Of a stretch of DNA of 30,315 nt, positions 103-19,704 are shown piece by piece. The notes beneath the pieces were generated by a model that searched no databases, had not been told where the DNA came from, and worked only from the letters and a program-made list of their open reading frames with translations. Location of the stretch: the IMG/VR virus record IMGVR_UViG_3300018080_000447, positions 1 through 30,315 of that record; one strand, written 5' to 3'. The translations under genes and the position numbers were made by a program. Source of the stretch: a virus. Position 1 is the first letter of the stretch. Every line of letters begins with the position of its first letter.

Positions 103-3100
103 TTAATCTGTTTTTGGCCAGTTAGGTAATTCAATAGTATTAGCGGGAGTGCTGTATGTTCGTGTCGTTGGATAACCATTACCTGACTTAAACTGGAATA
201 CAGTGAAATCATCGAATATAATCCACTGATCAGTGTCTGGAGAAAAAGAATCATCATTACCGCCATAAAACCAGGCTATATCTATTCTATTCATTAGTTG
301 ATCCATATTCGTGCCGTGCAGCCATTCTATCCCTTCGAGCCTTTCGACAAATTCTCCATCTACCCACGCTTCCATGAACCCATCCCTGTTACCGTCCGAA
401 AATGCATCTACGAAAGTATTACAAACCCAGCGAACCGTGATGTTGTGCCATTCTTCTTCCTGTATGTCCCAGGAAAACTGCTCTCCTGTATCCCACCAAT
501 ACCAGTGATTAACATCAGCATATTTTGCATATGGCATATTCTGATGATAATAAAAGTATTGCATACTTCCTGGTATGTTGTAACTATTGAACATCAATAA
601 GCCAGAAAAGCCTTGTTCCTCTGCAGGAGGTTGTGCTCCTTCGTATACAGGTCCACCTGCAAGGTAAGGAAGTTTACCCCCTTTCTGCCAGTCTGTGTTA
701 GGTTTGAACATCACGTTGTAGGAGAAGTACAGTTCCTCATGTTCCGTACCCAACTGGAATTTGAAGTATTCACCACCACGAGAAGGTCCAAAAGTCCCAG
801 CTAACTGCCATAATTTCAACCCTCTGCTTGAAGTAACTGGATCTTCCGCAATTGTATCTTTATAATAATAGTCAGGGTATCTTGCTGAGTCTATTCTTGT
901 TGGATTATACCATGAATCAGTCCATCCTACACCAGGGAAATCCTCTCGTATCTCTTCAATAGTATATACTCCCAAATCAGTGTCTTCGAAATCTTGTGAA
1001 TAAATAATGTCAAATATTTCAGGATCTGGGTTGGGAGGTTCTACGCTTCCCCCACCTTCCACCATTTCACCTACATTATTATATATAGTTGCTATTTGAT
1101 TTGCATTCAATAACCCTGCATATATCTGATAATCATCTCCGTATCCCCATAAGGGCGATCCGTCATCAAATTTTGCCCCAAACCTGATTTGAGCAGATGT
1201 GCCTATGCCTGATGTAATGCTTCTACCCACATCGTATTGACCATTTATATAGAATGCAACCGTATCGGCATCGTCATCCACAACAATAGCCCCATGTATC
1301 CAAGCTGTGATGGTGTTATGCCCGGTTGTTGAATAAACCGTTGTGGTAGTTCCACCATCCGTTGTTTCAAGGAAAAATCTTCCCTGGCTGTTGTCAAATC
1401 CATATCGCCACCCTGCTCCCTCATTAATTGTGGTTGCAATTGTCTTTGTCGATATTGTATTGAAATGTCGGCCCCAGCCTGACAAAGTAAACTGTGAGGT
1501 ATGGGGAATGGCTGGAGTGGTAACAAACCTATCGTTTCCATCAAAATTCCCTGATTTCGTTCCTTCCAATTTATTTGTCGAATAAGCAAAACTCCCCGAT
1601 GCAAAAGCATCATATGAATTTTCATTGTCTGTCAATGCATCATTAAACAGGTAGTGTGCAAGACCGCTTATAGCGGCAACAGGCGCATCATTTTCAACGA
1701 CAATGGTAAATGTATCCACTTCATTATCTGCCCTATCCCGCAGATCATTTCCTCCCGTCTTATCATAATTCAGACTCAGGGTTGTCCCACCCGATACTGA
1801 ATCACAAACAAACGATAATATATTACCAATTATCCTGGGGTTTGACAGGTCAAGTTGAGATCCGTCCTCAAGAAAATTAAAACTTGCAGTGTCTACCCCG
1901 GAATTATACAAATCCTCATCAAAATAGATCTCCAGCAATTTCCCGGTATCATCCACTTTTGCCGTATCTGGGGAAGGTGCAGTGGTGTCGACAACCGCAT
2001 CGTATATACCGTAAACATAATGCAGGCTGTCTATTTCTGTCTCTGTCAACCAGTTACTGTATCTCCGTAAATTATCCAGATACCCCCAGGCCTGTAGTGT
2101 ATCTTGATGATTAAGCCCTATGCGGAGCGTGTCATCAACGGGGAAATCGGTTCGAATCGTAGTGTCTGCATCTACATCCTGTCCGTTCACGTAAAAATGA
2201 GCGTATCCCGTTGTCTTATCTACAAGTAAGGCTATTGTCATTAATGTCCCTGCAGTATAAATAGATGAATCACTATCTGCATAAGCGGTATCTGTAGCGT
2301 TTGTTGTCATTAATCTAAAGTTACCGTTCACGGCATCAAGGAGAAGTGTATATCCTCCATCTGTGTCACTGTTAGTTAATAATGTGCGATTAGTGTGTTC
2401 TTGAGTAAAGGCTCGGAACGTGAAGAAATAACTAAACTTATTAATCGTATCATCCAACGGTATGTCTACATACTGTACCGACCCATCCAGGTTAGCTGAG
2501 TATGAACCTGAGCTATATGAATGAGTAGAATATTCAAATGCGGCAGAGGCTATTCCGTCCTTTGAGCCGACCCCGTCAGTAACAACTTGTTCGAAATCAT
2601 ATCTTGCTATAAGCGTTGCGTTTAATTTTACATCACTAACATTGTTCGTTACTGATTGATTTGAGAAGCTTGCTGTTTCATTACTGCTAGCGTCCTGTAA
2701 CATGTTAGCTGCAGGTTTCTCATAAGAAACCCTTACAGATTCCCCAAGTAATATACTCTCATTTAACGACAAATAAATAGATGCACCAGAGACTGAAACA
2801 CCAGAAACCCTTACATACCTGTAGTTTGCATATACAGCAAATGCGCTTGTATCTGGAATATAAGATGAACTTAATGTTTCACTCATAGTTATTGTAATCG
2901 TATCCCCAGTAGTATTTGTTGTTGCTGTAGACATGGTGGGAGCAGTGACATCAATCAACGGATTTAATGATGATCTTAACGCTGTAATAGAATCCATATA
3001 GGCATTTAAAAGCTGTCTGTGTACACTTACTGAATCATCTACGTAACTCTTAGTGACAATATATCTTTGCCCATAAGTTGATAAACTCAATGCTAATAAT

Positions 3101-3123
3101 ATAAAAAATAATATCTTCTTCAT
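103..3123 (-). CDS. Exported multidomain fibre or depolymerase: SwmB-LamG-SwmB-LamG-PL14-like
   Basis: This 1006-residue protein starts with a signal peptide (MKKILFFILLALSLSTYG, then Gln). A segment at about 60-165 resembles SwmB or bacterial Ig-like repeats (end motif QDASSNETASFSNQ). Then come a LamG or concanavalin-like domain (about 172-377), a second Ig-like domain (380-480), a second LamG domain (485-692), a Gly/Pro/Glu linker (693-712) and a C-terminal domain (about 707-1006). That last domain resembles polysaccharide lyase family 14 (the stretch KGGKLPYLAGG is typical). The likely role is binding and cutting a capsular or extracellular polysaccharide, as a tail spike or a secreted depolymerase. 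It is last in a leftward unit, four bases after its neighbour, and is followed by a terminator. A signal peptide on a phage fibre gene is unusual. The catalytic residues were not verified. Confidence 0.72.
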   Translation of the reverse strand: MKKILFFILLALSLSTYGQRYIVTKSYVDDSVSVHRQLLNAYMDSITALRSSLNPLIDVTAPTMSTATTNTTGDTITITMSETLSSSYIPDTSAFAVYANYRYVRVSGVSVSGASIYLSLNESILLGESVRVSYEKPAANMLQDASSNETASFSNQSVTNNVSDVKLNATLIARYDFEQVVTDGVGSKDGIASAAFEYSTHSYSSGSYSANLDGSVQYVDIPLDDTINKFSYFFTFRAFTQEHTNRTLLTNSDTDGGYTLLLDAVNGNFRLMTTNATDTAYADSDSSIYTAGTLMTIALLVDKTTGYAHFYVNGQDVDADTTIRTDFPVDDTLRIGLNHQDTLQAWGYLDNLRRYSNWLTETEIDSLHYVYGIYDAVVDTTAPSPDTAKVDDTGKLLEIYFDEDLYNSGVDTASFNFLEDGSQLDLSNPRIIGNILSFVCDSVSGGTTLSLNYDKTGGNDLRDRADNEVDTFTIVVENDAPVAAISGLAHYLFNDALTDNENSYDAFASGSFAYSTNKLEGTKSGNFDGNDRFVTTPAIPHTSQFTLSGWGRHFNTISTKTIATTINEGAGWRYGFDNSQGRFFLETTDGGTTTTVYSTTGHNTITAWIHGAIVVDDDADTVAFYINGQYDVGRSITSGIGTSAQIRFGAKFDDGSPLWGYGDDYQIYAGLLNANQIATIYNNVGEMVEGGGSVEPPNPDPEIFDIIYSQDFEDTDLGVYTIEEIREDFPGVGWTDSWYNPTRIDSARYPDYYYKDTIAEDPVTSSRGLKLWQLAGTFGPSRGGEYFKFQLGTEHEELYFSYNVMFKPNTDWQKGGKLPYLAGGPVYEGAQPPAEEQGFSGLLMFNSYNIPGSMQYFYYHQNMPYAKYADVNHWYWWDTGEQFSWDIQEEEWHNITVRWVCNTFVDAFSDGNRDGFMEAWVDGEFVERLEGIEWLHGTNMDQLMNRIDIAWFYGGNDDSFSPDTDQWIIFDDFTVFQFKSGNGYPTTRTYSTPANTIELPNWPKTD

Positions 3124-7538: not shown

Positions 7539-7888
7539 TCTATTAAATCTTTTTCATTAAAAAATACAGGGATATTGTGTTTTTTAGCTTCTTCTATTTC
7601 ATTTAGTGTCCCTTTAGAATCTTCCCAATTCTTTAACCCTGACATATTAGGAACGACAAATACAGCATCCGATACTCTTAACCACTCCATTGAGTAGTTA
7701 TAGAACATGGGTACAGTAAATTCTTGTGTCCAACAATCTGTTACGAATGTTTTATCATGCCAAGGAGTAAAGGGTGCAAATCCCATCATAAAGAGTTTAG
7801 ACGCATAATGTTCTCCACGTCCAATATTTTTTAATACACCAAGGACGTTATCATCGGAGTAAGCTCCGGCTACATAAACTTTTAACAT
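7502..7888 (-). CDS. Nucleoside 2-deoxyribosyltransferase-like protein
   Basis: The 128-residue protein starts with MLKVYVAGAYSDD, has a central SDAVFVVPN strand and a KGTLNEIEEAKKHNIPVF segment. These fit the nucleoside 2-deoxyribosyltransferase and DUF4406-type fold, in which a Glu near GTxxEI acts as nucleophile (here likely Glu97). Such enzymes exchange bases on deoxyribonucleosides or cleave deoxynucleotides. The neighbour is a guanylate-kinase-like enzyme, so the pair may salvage or modify a deoxynucleotide pool. The exact substrate cannot be read from sequence. Confidence 0.72.
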   Translation of the reverse strand: MLKVYVAGAYSDDNVLGVLKNIGRGEHYASKLFMMGFAPFTPWHDKTFVTDCWTQEFTVPMFYNYSMEWLRVSDAVFVVPNMSGLKNWEDSKGTLNEIEEAKKHNIPVFFNEKDLIEWKETKKLSSAS

Positions 7889-7903
7889 ACAATATAGTTT
7901 TGG

Positions 7904-8140
7904 TTATTTCTTTTTGGTAGCCATATCTCTTATAGAACTAAGAAACTCATCCCACTCTTTTTTCAACCTTTGGCTTTGTAAAGATTTTCTTTTTTTCTTA
8001 ATGTATATAAGATAATTGTGCATAGATTTTATACCCTCACAAAAAATCTGTGTTCTATAATTATTCAATCGTTGTTCTATTTCCTCGTTGGATACGGTAT
8101 TATTGGCGAAGTATTTTGCCAACTGTTTTGCTGTGGTCAT
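7904..8140 (-). CDS. Short lysine-rich helical protein
   Basis: First gene of the leftward operon, 78 residues and predicted all-helical, with a basic middle (YIKKKRKSLQSQRLKKEW). No family is recognised. It starts 35 bases after a full Bacteroidota promoter and is followed after 15 bases by the deoxyribosyltransferase-like gene. Position and size fit an early host-takeover or DNA-binding protein, but that is inference only. Confidence 0.6.
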   Translation of the reverse strand: MTTAKQLAKYFANNTVSNEEIEQRLNNYRTQIFCEGIKSMHNYLIYIKKKRKSLQSQRLKKEWDEFLSSIRDMATKKK

Positions 8141-8175
8141 ATGAAATGTTTTTAGTTATTTAAAATAACGATACG

Positions 8176-8207
8176 CTAAAGTACGTATTATCATTGACAT
8201 ACGCAAA
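8176..8207 (-). promoter_or_regulatory. Leftward early promoter
   Basis: On the minus strand, TTTG (8207-8204), 20 bp, then TACTTTAG (8183-8176). This matches the Bacteroidota consensus TTTG-N(19-21)-TAnnTTTG with one mismatch. It should drive the genes from 8140 to 6062. Confidence 0.65.
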
Positions 8208-8243
8208 TATATTCTAAATAATTTTAATTTAATCCTTAAATTA

Positions 8244-8275
8244 TTTGCATAAAAGAATGATATGGTTTAATTTTG
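8244..8275 (+). promoter_or_regulatory. Rightward early promoter
   Basis: TTTG (8244-8247), 20 bp, then TAATTTTG (8268-8275), a full match to the Bacteroidota housekeeping consensus. It lies back to back with the leftward promoter, 36 bp apart, and 20 bases before the ATG at 8296. The A/T-rich bases between the two could hold a regulator site. Confidence 0.8.
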
Positions 8276-8295
8276 TTTAGAAATAATCACACAAT

Positions 8296-8540: not shown

Positions 8541-8894
8541 ATGGAGTGGCTTAAAAATTGTAGCACAACCTCAGATGTTGAATTAAAAATTATAGATATG
8601 TTACATGGAGGTATTATACAAAGGCAGAGGTTAACGGATGGTGTCTTAGTAAAGATAGAAGCCACGGGATGCAAAAAGGAAGACATTAAGATTATTGGTA
8701 GACCAGATGGTTCTATGACTGTGTTCTTACCAGAAACAGATTTTTATTATCCTGAGATGACAAAGGAGTTTAAGGTAGATAAATCATTAGACGCACTGAA
8801 GTCATCAGCTAAGTATAAGCATGGAGTATTAGAAATTCATATTCCGTTTAAGGAAGATGCTATCGGAAAAGAAATCGAAATAGAGGACGGGTAA
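8541..8894 (+). CDS. Hsp20 / alpha-crystallin small heat-shock protein
   Basis: The 117-residue protein has a compact alpha-crystallin domain (about 32-104): DGVLVKIEATGCKKEDIKI, then a strand EFKVDKSLD, then the signature KHGVLEIHIPF (94-103). The C-terminal IEI (112-114) fits the IxI motif that joins subunits in oligomers. Such proteins hold unfolding proteins without ATP. The short N-terminal arm (about 30 residues) is typical of minimal family members. It lies in the same operon as a GroES-like protein, so the two may form a phage folding module. Hsp20 genes occur in some other phages, notably cyanophages. Confidence 0.82.
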   Translation: MEWLKNCSTTSDVELKIIDMLHGGIIQRQRLTDGVLVKIEATGCKKEDIKIIGRPDGSMTVFLPETDFYYPEMTKEFKVDKSLDALKSSAKYKHGVLEIHIPFKEDAIGKEIEIEDG

Positions 8895-10352: not shown

Positions 10353-11297
10353 TTGCCGAGTAGAGAAGTTTATATATTAGACAAGAAGGCGTTCAAGAAT
10401 CTTAGACTATTAAATAGAAACAATTCTGTTTTAGTCCGCATAGATACTAAGAATGTTAACAGAAGAACTAAATTAGGGATATATGTGGTTGGTGATACAG
10501 ATTTTAACCAACACGCACATGCCGATAGGATAGGGATAGTTGAGTGGATTCCCGAACATCTTAACTTAAATGATATGGATTGGGAAACCGATGTAGAGGT
10601 ACAGAAGGATGATGTGGTTTGGTTTGATTACATGGCTAGCTTAAACTGTCAGGCGTTTGATGTAGATGGTGTGGAATATAAGATGATTCACTACAGGGAT
10701 TTATACTTTGCTAAGAGGGGTGAGAAGGTGTTTCCGCTTAATGGAGTGTGTTTATTTGAGTTGGTTGATGCTGAAACTCCTGAGAGCAAATATGCTATAA
10801 ATACCAAGAAGAAGAAAGATGTAAGATACGGTATAGGCAAGTATATGTCAACACCCAACAGAAAATACAAGGATAATTTATATGTAGATGACGAGAGGAT
10901 AAAAGAGGGGACGAAAGCTATATTTGGTATGCCACCTATATTATTAGAGGATATGTTACATGCTGAGTTTGGTGGCGATCAGTTAAGAATCAGTGAAAGG
11001 AAGTTTGTGTTGGGTTGGGATGAAGGGGGCAGAGTGTATCCAACTAAGAACAATGTTGTTATTAAGCCGGATAAACCAAAAGAGAAAACGGAAGGAGGAA
11101 TCATCACTCCATTAAGGGTAAGGGATATTAAGAATGTAGAAGAAGGTGTGGTGGTGGAGAGTGATGCAGAAGGCTTACGCAGAGGTGTTCGGGTACGCTT
11201 TGCTCCTAACATTCAAGGTTCATCTTATGTACCTGATAAGAAACATGGGATCGTATATTTAACAAGAAGTAATAACGTGTATGTAAAATTTTCTTAG
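10353..11297 (+). CDS. Triple GroES-like (Cpn10) domain protein
   Basis: The 314-residue protein is read from TTG 10353. The C-terminal domain (about 230-313) strongly resembles GroES: NNVVIKPDKPKEKTEGGIIT, then EEGVVVES, RRGVRVRFAPN and a final strand. EGGIIT corresponds to the GroES mobile loop that binds GroEL. Residues 24-122 (SVLVRIDTKN, LGIYVV, IGIVEW, VQKDDVVWFDY) and 127-222 (GVCLFELVDAETPES, YGIGKYM, IKEGTKAIFG) follow the same strand order, so the protein seems to be three tandem Cpn10 domains, although the first two are weaker matches. It would act as a co-chaperonin for host GroEL, for example to fold the capsid protein. It ends the early operon after the methyltransferase. Confidence 0.7.
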   Translation: MPSREVYILDKKAFKNLRLLNRNNSVLVRIDTKNVNRRTKLGIYVVGDTDFNQHAHADRIGIVEWIPEHLNLNDMDWETDVEVQKDDVVWFDYMASLNCQAFDVDGVEYKMIHYRDLYFAKRGEKVFPLNGVCLFELVDAETPESKYAINTKKKKDVRYGIGKYMSTPNRKYKDNLYVDDERIKEGTKAIFGMPPILLEDMLHAEFGGDQLRISERKFVLGWDEGGRVYPTKNNVVIKPDKPKEKTEGGIITPLRVRDIKNVEEGVVVESDAEGLRRGVRVRFAPNIQGSSYVPDKKHGIVYLTRSNNVYVKFS

Positions 11298-11305
11298 TAC
11301 CTTTG
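11298..11305 (+). promoter_or_regulatory. Late-type promoter -7 element
   Basis: TACCTTTG starts directly after the stop codon of the GroES-like gene and lies 32 bases before the ATG at 11338. No TTTG lies 19-21 bp upstream. Confidence 0.55.
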
Positions 11306-11636: not shown

Positions 11637-11669
11637 AGCCCGTTCTATTTAGCTGGAACGGGCTTTTTA
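11637..11669 (+). terminator. Rho-independent terminator
   Basis: A perfect 9-bp stem (AGCCCGTTC 11637-11645 and GAACGGGCT 11656-11664) with a 10-nt loop and a T tract. It ends the small membrane gene and sits directly before the promoter of the virion block. Confidence 0.9.
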
Positions 11670-13283: not shown

Positions 13284-13988
13284 ATGCGAACAAGGGAAGC
13301 GGATTACAGCAAATGCTGGTTGAATCCTTATAAGCCTAAATTCCTTTCTAATATACAGAAGGAGCTTACGCTTTTTAAGGAGTTTGACGATAGCAAGCTA
13401 GGGAAGAAGAGGGTCTATCAATGGATAGTTATGATGTATGATCCTAACAGTCCTTGGCGAATGGAGGAGGCGCAATATTATAATAGAAAGAGGGAGGCTG
13501 CCAAAGAGGTTGGTTGGATTATTGAGCAGGGAAGATTTGATGATGATGTAGAGAAATTTCTCACAGGACAGGATAAGGTTATCAACGCTATGGTAGCCTC
13601 TTTTATTTCCCGATTTGCGAATCCCGAATACACACAGCTAATAGGCTTACTTGAGCTACAGCATTTAACCACAAAAAGTATTCTTGCTGGTAAATATACT
13701 CAACACACCACTAAGATTCTTAATGATATAACTAATGATATTAATCGTATTACTAATCGTTTGTATGGTAGTGGTGAGCAGGATGAGGTTTTATTAGCTA
13801 AGAAGGCGTTATATCAGGAAGCAGAGGAGAGTAGGATAAGGTTAAATCCTGAGAATATAGCTAAGGTGTTACAGGAGGATGGGGAGTTACCTGATGATTT
13901 TAACCCTTATGGGGATTACGAAACGGAAGATATACATTTTATAAGTGATGAGGGGGAGGAAGAAACAAAACGAAAAGGTACAGTATGA
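13284..13988 (+). CDS. Candidate small terminase subunit
   Basis: The 234-residue protein is helical, with a charged C-terminal tail rich in Glu and Asp (GDYETEDIHFISDEGEEE). It directly precedes the large terminase gene and overlaps it by 41 bp, the position typical of TerS. No helix-turn-helix or other motif can be assigned with confidence, so the identification rests mainly on gene order. The segment ELQHLTTKSILAGKYTQHTT may form a helical core. A head-completion protein is an alternative. Confidence 0.5.
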   Translation: MRTREADYSKCWLNPYKPKFLSNIQKELTLFKEFDDSKLGKKRVYQWIVMMYDPNSPWRMEEAQYYNRKREAAKEVGWIIEQGRFDDDVEKFLTGQDKVINAMVASFISRFANPEYTQLIGLLELQHLTTKSILAGKYTQHTTKILNDITNDINRITNRLYGSGEQDEVLLAKKALYQEAEESRIRLNPENIAKVLQEDGELPDDFNPYGDYETEDIHFISDEGEEETKRKGTV

Positions 13989-16314
13989 TTATAAGGATGC
14001 TGATACGTATTTTATTATCAACGATGGAGATGTTGATATTAAACCTTTAAGATTATCGTTACCCTCTCCACCTAAATTAAAATTCATAGATGGCTATGGG
14101 TTGCCACCCGAAGAACAATACTTTCGCCCATTAGAGATTCCAAAGAAACTTATCGAATTACAGCGTAGGGCATTTAACCAATGCAAGAAGAACTACGAGG
14201 TTAACAAACAGCTTGTCGTTACGTGGGATAGGGTGATAGACATGTATTGGACAATGTTTGAGGAGCAGAGGGATGATATGCCTGAAGAAGTTCTGTTTAT
14301 TAAACACGTTCATTGGTACAGAAATAATGGGTATTGGTTTTTCAATGACGGAAAGCCCACATGGCTACCACCCGATTATTTTGATTTCTTAAACTTCTAT
14401 AGAATAGCAGAGAATGGGGGGGAGCTACCTGAGTATAGGGATGAGGATAGAAAGAAGTATTGTTTCAGGCACTACCTTGAACATGCAACAGAAACTTTCG
14501 CAGACTTGGATGATAATGGGATGGCTGTTAAGGGTGTTGATGGCAAGTATAAGATGATAGATATAGGCTCACGTGTTTTCTTTGGGGATTTAGAGCCTAA
14601 GTTCAGAAGAAGGGGTTCAACACATCAGGGCTGTCACAAGGTAAAGAAAGGCTGTGAGACGACTTTTGGTTCATATGGTACAATTATATCAATGGAGGGA
14701 GATAATGCCGAGAAACATTACTATAAGAAGTTATTACCCGCATTTGAGAGGTATCCTTACTTTCTTATTTGTAAGAACGATGCTACGGTAGGTAGATTTC
14801 CACTTAAGATAAGATACAGGGCGAGAACATCTATGTACGATGTTTATTCTATGGATTCTATGATTGACTTTACAGATAGTGCTGATGAGAAGAAGAACGA
14901 TGGTGACAAATTGTTTTATTCACTGATGGACGAGGAAGGAAAGGCAGACCGAGTGGACGTTTTAGAGAGATGGAACGTTAATAAACTTGCTCAGTCCACG
15001 GGTTCTGGTTCTAAGATTATAGGTTACAGTCAACACCCTTCAACGGTAGAGCAAATGGAGGAGGGTGGATTAGCGTATATGAAGATGGCTCAGTTATCAA
15101 ACTTCTATCAAAGGATACCGGGAAAAGGACAAACAAACAGTGGATTAGCAAGGATATTTTTCCCTGCATATAAGGGGCTTGAGAATTTCATAGACCGTTT
15201 CGGCATGTCTGTAATAGATAAACCTACCGAGCGGCAGAAAAGGTTACGTCCTGATGCCTTGTTTGCAAGATTAGATATGGGGGCGTTAGAGTACTTATTA
15301 AACGAAAGAGATAGTTTACTTAAGAGGGGAACACCTGAAGCGATGGAGTCTTATCGTTCACTCAGGCGTAAAATGCCTATACAATATGCAGAGTGTTGGT
15401 TAGGTTCAAGTGGTGATATGGGATGGGATTTAGAGAAGGTAGATAGAAGGTTAGTAGAGCTTAAGCGTAAAGATAATATTAGGGTAGGGAACTTTGAATG
15501 GGCTGATGATATTCCTGATAGCAAGGTTGTGTTTGTAGAAGATAAGAATGGAAGGTTTGAGGTTAGCCGATTATTGCCTGATACCTTATCCAACAAGAAA
15601 ACCAAAGAACCCGTTTACATAGCTAAGAAAAGAAAGACAGAATACCAACATGCTCCTTTGTTCACTAATCGGTTTACATTAGGTGCTGACCCGATACGGT
15701 TTTCTAACAAATCAGATGCTAAGTTAAGAGATAATAAGAGCAGGCAATCTGATGGTGGTATAGCTGTATTTTGGGAGAGAGATACAGAGATAGATAAAGA
15801 TGATAATCCTAAAGAGTGGAAAAGTAGTAAATTTGTTGTATCGTACAGGTACAGACCTGCGAGTACATTTGAGTATAACGAAGACGTATTAAAAGTTGCA
15901 GTGTATTATGGAGCTACAGTTTACATGGAACGAAATGTTGAGAATCTGTGGGAACACTTTTTGGATAGAGGATATGGTGGGTATCTACAATATGACATCA
16001 ATCCCGGAACAGGAAGATATAACGACAAGCCAGGATGTTACATGGACAATGCCATAAAGGATGAGGGCTTTCGTTGGGTAAAGAATTACATTAATAAGCG
16101 TTGCCACATGGAAGACTTTGCTTCATTCCTTAAAGAAATAAAGAGAATGCAGGGGCCTGAACATATGACATATAATGATAGATTTACAGCACACATGATA
16201 GCTGGGTTAGGTTCATGGAGGAAAATGGGTAACGAATATTATAATCCTAAGAAGACTGAGAAACAGAGTGAAGGGTATAGTATTAGGAGTGCGGTAAAAT
16301 GGCTTAGGGGGTGA
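13948..16314 (+). CDS. terL: Terminase large subunit
   Basis: The protein packages DNA into the prohead using an ATPase and a nuclease domain. ATG 13948 is preferred over GTG 13945, giving 788 residues, long for the family. The ATPase part has a degenerate Walker A (RRRGSTHQ, about 220-228 instead of the usual GxxxxGK[ST]). The nuclease part begins with FTLGADPIRF (near 580; GAD holds the first acidic residue), continues with VYMERN (near 660) and ends with DRFTAHMIAG (near 745), fitting the RNase H-like fold with three acidic metal-binding residues. The gene overlaps the candidate small terminase and is followed by the portal gene behind its own promoter. Confidence 0.82.
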   Translation: MRGRKKQNEKVQYDYKDADTYFIINDGDVDIKPLRLSLPSPPKLKFIDGYGLPPEEQYFRPLEIPKKLIELQRRAFNQCKKNYEVNKQLVVTWDRVIDMYWTMFEEQRDDMPEEVLFIKHVHWYRNNGYWFFNDGKPTWLPPDYFDFLNFYRIAENGGELPEYRDEDRKKYCFRHYLEHATETFADLDDNGMAVKGVDGKYKMIDIGSRVFFGDLEPKFRRRGSTHQGCHKVKKGCETTFGSYGTIISMEGDNAEKHYYKKLLPAFERYPYFLICKNDATVGRFPLKIRYRARTSMYDVYSMDSMIDFTDSADEKKNDGDKLFYSLMDEEGKADRVDVLERWNVNKLAQSTGSGSKIIGYSQHPSTVEQMEEGGLAYMKMAQLSNFYQRIPGKGQTNSGLARIFFPAYKGLENFIDRFGMSVIDKPTERQKRLRPDALFARLDMGALEYLLNERDSLLKRGTPEAMESYRSLRRKMPIQYAECWLGSSGDMGWDLEKVDRRLVELKRKDNIRVGNFEWADDIPDSKVVFVEDKNGRFEVSRLLPDTLSNKKTKEPVYIAKKRKTEYQHAPLFTNRFTLGADPIRFSNKSDAKLRDNKSRQSDGGIAVFWERDTEIDKDDNPKEWKSSKFVVSYRYRPASTFEYNEDVLKVAVYYGATVYMERNVENLWEHFLDRGYGGYLQYDINPGTGRYNDKPGCYMDNAIKDEGFRWVKNYINKRCHMEDFASFLKEIKRMQGPEHMTYNDRFTAHMIAGLGSWRKMGNEYYNPKKTEKQSEGYSIRSAVKWLRG

Positions 16315-16415: not shown

Positions 16416-18785
16416 ATGATAAAGAAAAATAAAGTTACGGGTTATCCGAAGGTGGACATACCCGATTCTCAGAAGAATGAGAAATACCACTTACAATGGT
16501 GTAAAGCAATAGGCAGTGCAATAGCAAGAAACAAAAGTGGAATAGACCAATCCATGCGTAATCATTTTAGTTTAATGAGGATGTATGGTGAAGGAAACCA
16601 ACCCGAAGATTTATACAAAGATTATAAGTTTGGTGAGGGGAATATCCCGAACTCAGAATCAGATCAGGACGGGAGTTGGAACAATCCGGGTCAAGGATCA
16701 CGTGAGGGATACCAACATATAGATTATACTCCCGTATCTCCAATGCCACGTATTAAAGATAAGCTAAAGGGCTTGCTCGATGGAGTAGACTACAATGTTT
16801 ATGTAGATACTATAGATGAGCAGAGTGGCGCAGAGAAAGAAGAGAAGAAGTGGAGGCTGTGGGTACAGAAGGAACACGGAGCATTCCTTAATCAATTAAA
16901 ACAAAACGCAGACATACCCGTACAAGAACCTAATTATATTCCAAGCACCCCATATGAACTTGAACTCTTTGAAAAGGTAGGTGGGTTAAAGTCTCGTATT
17001 GCTAAGGCTATGGAGAAGCTTACGAGCCATACCTTTGAGATAAGCGAGTGGGATGCTGATTTAAGGGATGCTATCATAGATGACTTAATGGATAATGGTC
17101 GGGCTGTAGTAAAGATTAACTTAGACCCTGAAGATGGCAAGTGGAAGATTAAGTATATTGATTTGGTAGATGCCATTTTACCATACATGAGGAAATATGA
17201 TTTAAGTGAGCTACCATATGCGGGTCATTATGAGTGGATGACTATAGCCGATTTAAGGCAGCATGTGGATATGAGTGAAGAAAAGCTAGCGGATTTGGCT
17301 AAGAGGTTTGCTGGTAAATATAATAATCCAGGTGCTACACAATGGGAAGAACTCAGTCGTGCGCAGGATGATGGTTCATTTGGCTATGAATCATTTCGTA
17401 TAAAGGTTATGCATCTTGAGTGGATAGACGAGTCTCAGAAGCGTACTATGTATTACAAGAATCGTTATGGTAAGAAGTCTGCTTTCAGGTTAGAAAGGGA
17501 TGAACAGCCTAAACCAATAAGCGATAAACAAAAAGAACGTGGAGTACAGCAGAGGGTGGAAACAACTAATTACCGTGTACTCAGACAGGCATCTTGGGTG
17601 GTGGATAGTGACGTAGTATTTGATTGGGGGAAAACTAATTTCATGGACAGACCCATTAAGAATAAGGTTGTCCCATCATACATTCAAGTTAAACTTAATA
17701 ATAAGCCCATTACAGAGCGTTTAAGACCCGTGATGGATGATATAATGGTTGCGTGGTTAAAGTACCAAGACGGGCGTGCTATGGCTATTAAAAATGGTTA
17801 TGCAATAGACTTTGCCATGATGCAAAACATAACAGATGGGGATGGGAATAAGTTTTCGTTTAGAGATATTATAGAGATGTGGAGGGAGGATGGTATATTA
17901 TTATTCCAACAGTCTATGTCGGGAAGATATGAAGGAGGTTCAGTAACTCCTGTCATACCGATTGAAAGTATGACAGGAAGGGTATTACAAGATGCTGCTG
18001 ATATGTGGACGCTCGCTATGCGCAAGATAGAAGATTTAACAGGATTAAGCCCCGTGGCTTTAGGTGCTTCACCTGCTGGAGAAACAGCTACAGGAACTGA
18101 ATTAAGTATGGCTTCTACGGCAGATATTCTTAAACCATTAATAAATAAGATGCTTACTCTTAAGGAGAGGGTAGCACGTTCTACTATGCGTAGGATACAG
18201 ATGTTCTGTGATGGTGATTACATAGATGTATATGAGGGAGCAATAGGTAAGATGGATATACAGAGATTAAAACAAGCGATGAAAAGGAGTACCCCGGTTC
18301 AATATGGAATGAGCTTTGAAGCGAAGCCAACACAGCAAGAAAAACAGCAACTAATAGATTTTGTAAATATATCTGTGAATAACAGGAGAGAAGGCAAGCC
18401 AGGATTATCGTTAGCAGATGCTAGTTATGTGCTTGAACAAATAAATGGTGGTGGTAATCTGAAAGAAATGAGAATGATTATTGCTTATAAGGAGGAGAAG
18501 GCTAGGGAGGAGCAAAGGATACAGGAGCAAGAAAATATTAAATTACAAGGGGAACAGAATGTTAAACTCAAGGAGGCAGAGGCTCAAGCTCAGAGGGAAA
18601 AAATAGAGGGAGAATTAACGGTAAAGCAGGCTGAGGGTCAAAATGAATTGCAAAAAGTTCAGGCTGAGCTAATGAAAACCGTTCTTGTGGATTACATGAA
18701 GGAACACGCAGATGAGGCTAAAAAGTTTATTGAAGAAAATAAAATGATTGGTAATAGCAATGGCGAAGATATGCGGAATATATAG
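16416..18785 (+). CDS. Portal protein
   Basis: The 789-residue protein has the size, place and composition of a portal: it lies between TerL and the scaffold/capsid genes. The segment LTGLSPVALGASPAGETATG, followed by a helix ending LTLKERVA, fits the portal core around the tunnel-loop region. The last quarter is a long coiled coil rich in Gln and Glu (about 690-770), like the barrel of other portals, and the final residues read into the homing-endonuclease start. It forms the dodecameric ring through which DNA passes. Assignment is by position and general features, without a search. Confidence 0.75.
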   Translation: MIKKNKVTGYPKVDIPDSQKNEKYHLQWCKAIGSAIARNKSGIDQSMRNHFSLMRMYGEGNQPEDLYKDYKFGEGNIPNSESDQDGSWNNPGQGSREGYQHIDYTPVSPMPRIKDKLKGLLDGVDYNVYVDTIDEQSGAEKEEKKWRLWVQKEHGAFLNQLKQNADIPVQEPNYIPSTPYELELFEKVGGLKSRIAKAMEKLTSHTFEISEWDADLRDAIIDDLMDNGRAVVKINLDPEDGKWKIKYIDLVDAILPYMRKYDLSELPYAGHYEWMTIADLRQHVDMSEEKLADLAKRFAGKYNNPGATQWEELSRAQDDGSFGYESFRIKVMHLEWIDESQKRTMYYKNRYGKKSAFRLERDEQPKPISDKQKERGVQQRVETTNYRVLRQASWVVDSDVVFDWGKTNFMDRPIKNKVVPSYIQVKLNNKPITERLRPVMDDIMVAWLKYQDGRAMAIKNGYAIDFAMMQNITDGDGNKFSFRDIIEMWREDGILLFQQSMSGRYEGGSVTPVIPIESMTGRVLQDAADMWTLAMRKIEDLTGLSPVALGASPAGETATGTELSMASTADILKPLINKMLTLKERVARSTMRRIQMFCDGDYIDVYEGAIGKMDIQRLKQAMKRSTPVQYGMSFEAKPTQQEKQQLIDFVNISVNNRREGKPGLSLADASYVLEQINGGGNLKEMRMIIAYKEEKAREEQRIQEQENIKLQGEQNVKLKEAEAQAQREKIEGELTVKQAEGQNELQKVQAELMKTVLVDYMKEHADEAKKFIEENKMIGNSNGEDMRNI

Positions 18786-19704
18786 GATTCAGTCTAAGTC
18801 GTGCCCTGATAAATATTATATAGGTAGTTCTGTGGATGTATTTACTAGATGGGGGACTCATATTAGAAAATTAAAGTCTAATGAGCATTGTAACAGGAAA
18901 TTGCAGAATCATTATAATAAATACGGTGTTAATGATTTAATGTTTTGCTTAGTGGTTGAATGCGGGAAGGATGATGTACGATCTTTAGAGCAGATGTATC
19001 TTGATATTTTATCTCCTCCGTTAAATTTAGCTAAGAAGGTTATATATCCAAGTGCAGGTATTGAGCTTTCTGAGGAGGGTGAAAAGAGAAGAGCAGAGGC
19101 TTGTTATACAAGAGTGGTGCAGTTAGATTTAAATGGGAATTACATTAATGAGTATGAATCTATTAAGGAGGCTGCATTTGTTAATGATTTAAACGCTAAA
19201 AAGATATCGTCATGTGCAAGTTTAAATGATTCTATGAAAGCGCATGGTGGCTTTTTATGGGTTAAAAAGAGTGATTACGAAAATGGTTATATACCTTCAT
19301 ATAAGCCACCTAAAACAAAAATATACCAATATACATTAGATGGAATATTTGTTAATGAATGGGGGAGTGTTAAAGAGGCTGCTAGATATTTTGGTATAGA
19401 TGACAGAAAAATTCATTGCGTTAGCAAAAATGAAAGTTCATATGTTGCTGGATTTCAATGGAGGTATTATAAGAAAAATAAAATTTCTAAATATAAATAT
19501 AGGAGGGTGTGTGTGCCAAAACCAGTTAATCAATATGATTTAAAAGGGAATTTTATAAGAAGGCATGAGTCTATAAAAGAGGCGTTAGACGAGTTAGGGA
19601 AAAAGTCTAATGATAGTGGTATAGTAAGGGCGTGTAAAGGTAAGGCTACTTACGCTCATGGATATAAATGGGCATATGCAGAAGAACCTGTAGAACAAGT
19701 GTGA
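18760..19704 (+). CDS. GIY-YIG homing endonuclease with three NUMOD1-like repeats
   Basis: The nuclease domain at the N terminus shows CGIYRIQS (GIY 6-8), KYYIGSS (YIG 20-22), an Arg at about 30 and Glu77 in LEQMYLDILSPPLNLAK, all typical of GIY-YIG enzymes. Three repeats follow (about 118-168, 187-236, 256-306), each with Y/L-x-L-x-G-x-F, S-[IV]-K-E-A and a closing [FY]-x-W, which is the NUMOD1 DNA-binding module. ATG 18760 (314 residues) is preferred to TTG 18748. It overlaps the portal stop by 26 bp and sits between portal and scaffold, as a free-standing mobile gene inserted into the virion block. The nuclease would cut genomes lacking the insert at this site. Confidence 0.88.
   Translation: MAKICGIYRIQSKSCPDKYYIGSSVDVFTRWGTHIRKLKSNEHCNRKLQNHYNKYGVNDLMFCLVVECGKDDVRSLEQMYLDILSPPLNLAKKVIYPSAGIELSEEGEKRRAEACYTRVVQLDLNGNYINEYESIKEAAFVNDLNAKKISSCASLNDSMKAHGGFLWVKKSDYENGYIPSYKPPKTKIYQYTLDGIFVNEWGSVKEAARYFGIDDRKIHCVSKNESSYVAGFQWRYYKKNKISKYKYRRVCVPKPVNQYDLKGNFIRRHESIKEALDELGKKSNDSGIVRACKGKATYAHGYKWAYAEEPVEQV

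Follow-up and report, generated by a model that had tools for sequence, protein, structure and literature searches.

Natural chains with tandem GroES domains are, in the literature that we searched with incomplete coverage, the two-domain Cpn20 proteins only, and longer ones have been engineered. Cpn20 and Cpn10 of the chloroplast build seven-domain hetero-rings, and covalent lids of six to eight domains work with GroEL (PMC5780408). The engineered GroES7 loses only about twofold in GroEL affinity when two of its modules are silent, and more than 25-fold when three are (PMC5575113). In phages, T4 gp31 folds gp23 (PMC6318259). Phages of Cellulophaga, Flavobacterium, and Maribacter encode, directly upstream of the terminase, a protein of 180-200 aa annotated as co-chaperonin GroES. 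Here, we describe a 314-aa protein encoded in a 30,315-base IMG/VR virus record, the whole of which was analyzed and is called the window below (Table 1), and conclude that it is real and unusual: a natural member, with three domains, of a known family of phage co-chaperonin-like proteins that mostly have two.

Table 1. Positions in the window of the three-domain gene, its parts, and the hairpin that follows
Feature	Position	Strand	Details
Three-domain GroES-like (Cpn10) ORF, 314 aa	10353..11297	+	TTG start 10353, stop 11295-11297
N-terminal extension, residues 1-23 (strand and helix)	10353..10421	+	AlphaFold2 strand 6-8, helix 11-20
Cpn10 domain 1 (D1), residues 24-122	10422..10718	+	Pfam, sister D1 profile, tree
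D1 mobile-loop position, residues 35-48	10455..10496	+	pLDDT <50; motif TKLGIYV
Cpn10 domain 2 (D2), residues 123-223	10719..11021	+	Sister D2 profile, hhalign, tree
D2 mobile-loop position, residues 142-155	10776..10817	+	pLDDT <50; motif lost in the alignment
Cpn10 domain 3 (D3), residues 224-314	11022..11294	+	Pfam, sister single-domain GroES profile, alignment
D3 mobile-loop position, residues 245-257	11085..11123	+	KTEGGIITPLRVR; pLDDT <50; matches KTDGGIIIP of L158
Terminator-like hairpin, strong	11637-11664	+	11 pairs, then a T run; 3′ of the 85-aa ORF

The window is most likely a fragment of a Bacteroidota podovirus, judging from the relatives of its terminase, which is about 23-27% identical to those of Cellulophaga phi19:3, Flavobacterium elemo phages, and Maribacter phage Panino, and from a sister terminase (34%) that sits in a MAG carrying the label Bacteroidetes bacterium. 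In PHROG, the large terminase, portal, and capsid proteins of the window match terminase, portal, and virion families. The small-terminase-like protein and the large terminase are encoded by two overlapping ORFs (13284-13988 and 13945-16314); in the closest terminase relative (L006:1947-4778), a small-terminase-like N-terminal part is apparently fused to the large terminase in a 943-aa ORF. Elsewhere in the window, a 318-aa ORF with a GIY-YIG-like start (CGIYRIQ...KYYIGSS), located between the portal gene and the next structural gene (18748-19704, + strand), probably encodes a homing endonuclease, going by its sequence, and a 1006-aa ORF (103-3123, − strand) with a TIGR02059 (swm_rep_I) repeat, at 37.8 bits against a cut-off of 40.1, is probably a large surface or tail protein.

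A DNA methylase gene ends 12 bases before the three-domain gene, and the 85-aa ORF comes after it. The genes leading to the terminase start beyond the strong hairpin, so that the three-domain gene may be transcribed apart from them. The TANNTTTG promoter matches number 36 in the window, about as many as the 34 expected by chance, and the motif at 11298 is no evidence of a promoter. About 1.5 kb upstream lies a second chaperone-type gene (8541-8894, + strand), encoding a 117-aa small heat-shock (HSP20-like) protein whose matches to NCBIfam Hsp20 (E=9.9e-6) and Pfam HSP20 (E=0.0018) are both under the curated cut-offs. The TTG start of the 314-aa ORF is plausible, because no other common start codon comes before residue 75 and the model shows the N-terminal strand and helix at fair confidence (pLDDT about 75-88 over the extension). 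The extension is absent in L007, the closest relative examined in detail, and mostly missing from the nearest sister proteins. At the start of D3 (11022-11036, + strand), an in-frame GTG at 11034 stands 4 nt after GAAGGGGG, and from this GTG a free 87-aa single-domain GroES might be made.

All three segments of the protein were confirmed as Cpn10 domains, as the original prediction had proposed. The whole protein matches Pfam Cpn10 over two stretches (E=2.6e-10, 40.6 bits, cut-off 21.1). When submitted alone, D1 (residues 20-122) scores E=2.3e-4 and 21.6 bits over profile positions 7-89, just over the same cut-off, and D3 (residues 223-314) reaches E=2.9e-5 and 24.5 bits, while D2 alone (residues 122-224) gave no direct match to Pfam Cpn10. 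The assignment of D2 follows from linked hhalign results: window and sister D2s match the D2 of more distant family members at 98.2%, and those distant D2s match single-domain phage GroES at 98.0% and 97.4%. Against profiles of sister proteins built without the window, D1, D2, and D3 scored 49.5, 27.5, and 32.1 bits, whereas with 200 shuffled copies of each domain the highest scores were 9.6, 8.9, and 8.5 bits. An AlphaFold2 model (26 rows; mean pLDDT 81, pTM 0.79) repeats the identical strand order three times along the chain, residues 24-222 included, giving three Cpn10 beta-barrels each with a mobile loop, and the sole segments with pLDDT below 50 are the three loop positions. The top Foldseek match of the model in the PDB is 7ekq_R (E=3.6e-5, 211 columns), named in the PDB, by sequence search, as the Cpn20 co-chaperonin subunit, a two-domain chloroplast chain; GroES chains come next with probability 1.00, and the T4 gp31 structure 1g31 is also found (E=0.096).

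By its sequence, the gene belongs to a family whose two-domain GroES-like products are encoded upstream of the terminase in Bacteroidota podoviruses, and the family gene also adjoins the terminase in many IMG/VR loci. As single queries, the window protein, its terminase, and its portal retrieved no relatives from viral contigs, nor did the window protein from GenBank phages; the relatives were reached with alignment queries. Family members were gathered by iterated profile searches in loci fetched through the terminase, yielding 102 distinct members, 97 of them complete, and 95 of these 97 measure 160-267 aa, so the window protein, with its 314 aa and three domains, falls outside the two-domain norm of 160-270 aa. 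Over D1 and D2 it is collinear with the family: identity to L007 is 33% over the aligned D1-D2 part, and a two-domain sister profile (A8, built without the window) finds the window protein at E=6.3e-23. The two-domain form was present in 14/14 other sister records where the gene was found. The tree places D1 among sister D1s (98/89) and D2 among sister D2s (97/95), and profile scores and tree identify both as orthologs of D1 and D2 of the two-domain family. The Flavobacterium elemo phage L005 has, besides its two-domain terminase-adjacent protein, its own GroEL and single-domain GroES (779-2592 and 7736-8278), and similar sets occur in G045, G047, and G048; since a complete pair is present there, the two-domain protein is not simply the GroES of these relatives.

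The mobile loops are not equally conserved. The original prediction held that only the third domain keeps the GGI loop and that it alone might be active, which our alignment does not bear out as put: D1 retains a GI-x-hydrophobic (GI-x-V) loop, with TKLGIYV aligning to TKSGIKL and TASGFEL of sister proteins. Only in D2 is the motif lost. The GroES tripeptide I-V-L is kept in part by D1 (GIYV) and D3 (GGIIT, with I-I-T at its position) and missing in D2. The same prediction argued that three-domain chains could not simply tile seven positions and would need a different cap geometry. The first part stands for a pure homo-oligomer, but a new geometry is not forced, given that lids of six domains and hetero-rings of Cpn20 with Cpn10 are functional; by analogy, a GroEL ring would accommodate either a pair of chains, which supply six domains, or such a pair plus one single GroES (3+3+1). 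Because D2 is without the motif, a 3+3+1 ring would have five working and two silent loops, the same state as GroES7 with two dead loops.

The simplest reading of D3, from sequence comparison, is a single-domain GroES that was joined to a two-domain gene. A separate single-domain GroES of 83-93 aa is encoded in 6/6 sister records longer than 60 kb that carry the two-domain gene (G002, G010, G011, G017, G024, and G030), as well as in the 56-kb sister record G027, and these genes lie elsewhere than the two-domain gene. G011 has a second single GroES, of 90 aa, whose gene and the end of the two-domain gene overlap (L094, 1669-1941 vs 963-1679). The joining origin is favored because D3 scores with the sister single-domain proteins (32.1 bits; hhalign, 94%) and not with sister D2s (0.6 bits; 0.9%), its score to sister D1s being similarly low (2.6 bits; 1.6%), and alignment A9 pairs IKPDKPKEKTEGGIITP of D3 with IKPDALPEKTDGGIIIP of L158. 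The same scores speak against an internal duplication of D1 or D2 as the source of D3, an alternative that we consider possible but unlikely and that draws on two observations which also count against joining: the linker between D2 and D3 (EGGRVYP) is similar to that between D1 and D2 (RGEKVFP), and in the tree D3 has a long branch, without a settled placement, that lies outside the D2 group, nearer the D1/single side and not with the single-domain genes.

Our preferred explanation for the protein as a whole, to which we give a probability of roughly 0.65, is that three Cpn10 lid domains have been linked covalently into a phage co-chaperonin, which would act by capping host GroEL. We propose that it arose by fusion of a single-domain GroES unit to the two-domain gene. 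With the two units fused in one genome but encoded apart in others, the two-domain and single-domain products are likely to work in a common complex, like chloroplast Cpn20 and Cpn10. No GroEL was detected in the records of the window clade and none was seen among the window ORFs, so the partner would be the host GroEL, whose ring could be closed by two chains or by two chains and one host or phage single-domain GroES. As the window is a 30-kb fragment, an additional single-domain GroES may lie elsewhere in the genome. Docking would be carried out by the D1 and D3 mobile loops, with D2 mainly building the ring, and the likely clients, by analogy with T4 gp31 and gp23, would be phage head or packaging proteins. 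The absence of GroEL from the clade records, the missing loop motif of D2, and the I-I-T of D3 in place of I-V-L count against this explanation. A more specific version is offered only tentatively: phages would have a natural multi-domain lid system with a two-domain and a single-domain subunit, separate in sister phages and one chain here, and two chains plus one host GroES would form a hybrid seven-position lid (3+3+1) on host GroEL, with the silent D2 loop tuning affinity.

A different function is conceivable, in which the Cpn10 barrels were repurposed as a terminase- or head-associated structural or packaging accessory factor that no longer works with GroEL. The family gene adjoins the small and large terminase in nearly all relatives, D2 has lost its loop motif, some relatives also hold the complete GroEL and single-domain GroES pair described above, and the Cpn10-type chains of 7ekq are in a ClpP complex, not on GroEL. 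However, D1 and D3 still have mobile-loop sequences, their disordered loops are of the expected kind, and the window gene precedes a strong terminator, away from the head genes, so that we regard this alternative as rather doubtful.

It is very improbable that the chain is an artefact in which assembly or sequencing error removed a stop codon between two adjacent genes: L094 shows exactly such a separate, overlapping arrangement and the GTG at 11034 could start a separate 87-aa D3, but the frame is single and open, the junctions are tight and confidently modelled, and chains with three domains are found again in L147/L148 (two contigs) and in L149. The L147 (2173-3237) and L148 proteins have 354 aa: three segments match Cpn10, and the N terminus adds about 100 residues. 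Their genomes also encode GroEL; L149 has three Cpn10 segments, with its 5′ end open, plus a separate GroES. Four Cpn10 domains in L147 were not confirmed, as the first ~110 residues mostly have pLDDT below 50 and the first 80 have no Pfam match; the N-terminal part of L147/L148 could be a diverged fourth domain, and we count these proteins as three domains plus another N-terminal part. A tblastn search of phages with the four-segment L147 and the two-domain L100 proteins gave no matches. The BFVD match A0A516L046, a viral protein of 304 aa aligned over its full length, may be a fourth case with a third Cpn10 domain.

Three phage lineages thus have natural three-domain chains alongside forms with two domains or one, and the fit of non-sevenfold lids to a sevenfold chaperonin becomes testable with natural proteins. 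The pattern of separate and joined units further predicts that a very common phage gene, annotated simply as GroES, acts as a hetero-oligomer.

Among known systems, the closest are the two-domain proteins of Cellulophaga phi19:3 (gp101), Maribacter phage Panino (CDS0088), and Flavobacterium elemo (gp30), annotated as co-chaperonin GroES or chaperonin cpn10. The window shares their phage lineage, as seen in the large terminase, portal, and capsid matches, and D1 and D2 are collinear and homologous with these proteins, whose genes likewise lie upstream of the terminase; in contrast to these chains of 180-200 aa, the window protein adds a third GroES-like domain, and its gene is four further genes away from the small terminase. 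It resembles the chloroplast and apicoplast Cpn20 in having head-to-tail Cpn10 domains in one chain, 7ekq being the best PDB match of the model, and, as proposed for the window system, Cpn20 partners a separate single-domain Cpn10; Cpn20, however, has two domains, is targeted to eukaryotic organelles, and has an experimentally tested function, whereas the window protein has three and is a phage gene product. With T4 gp31 and other phage GroES analogues it shares a phage-encoded Cpn10 fold, although these have one domain per chain and form homoheptamers. Finally, like the engineered GroES concatemers of six to eight domains, such as GroES7, which tolerate being covalently linked and having one or two loops silenced, it holds several GroES domains in one chain, but those are artificial identical repeats, whereas the window chain is natural and made of three diverged domains.
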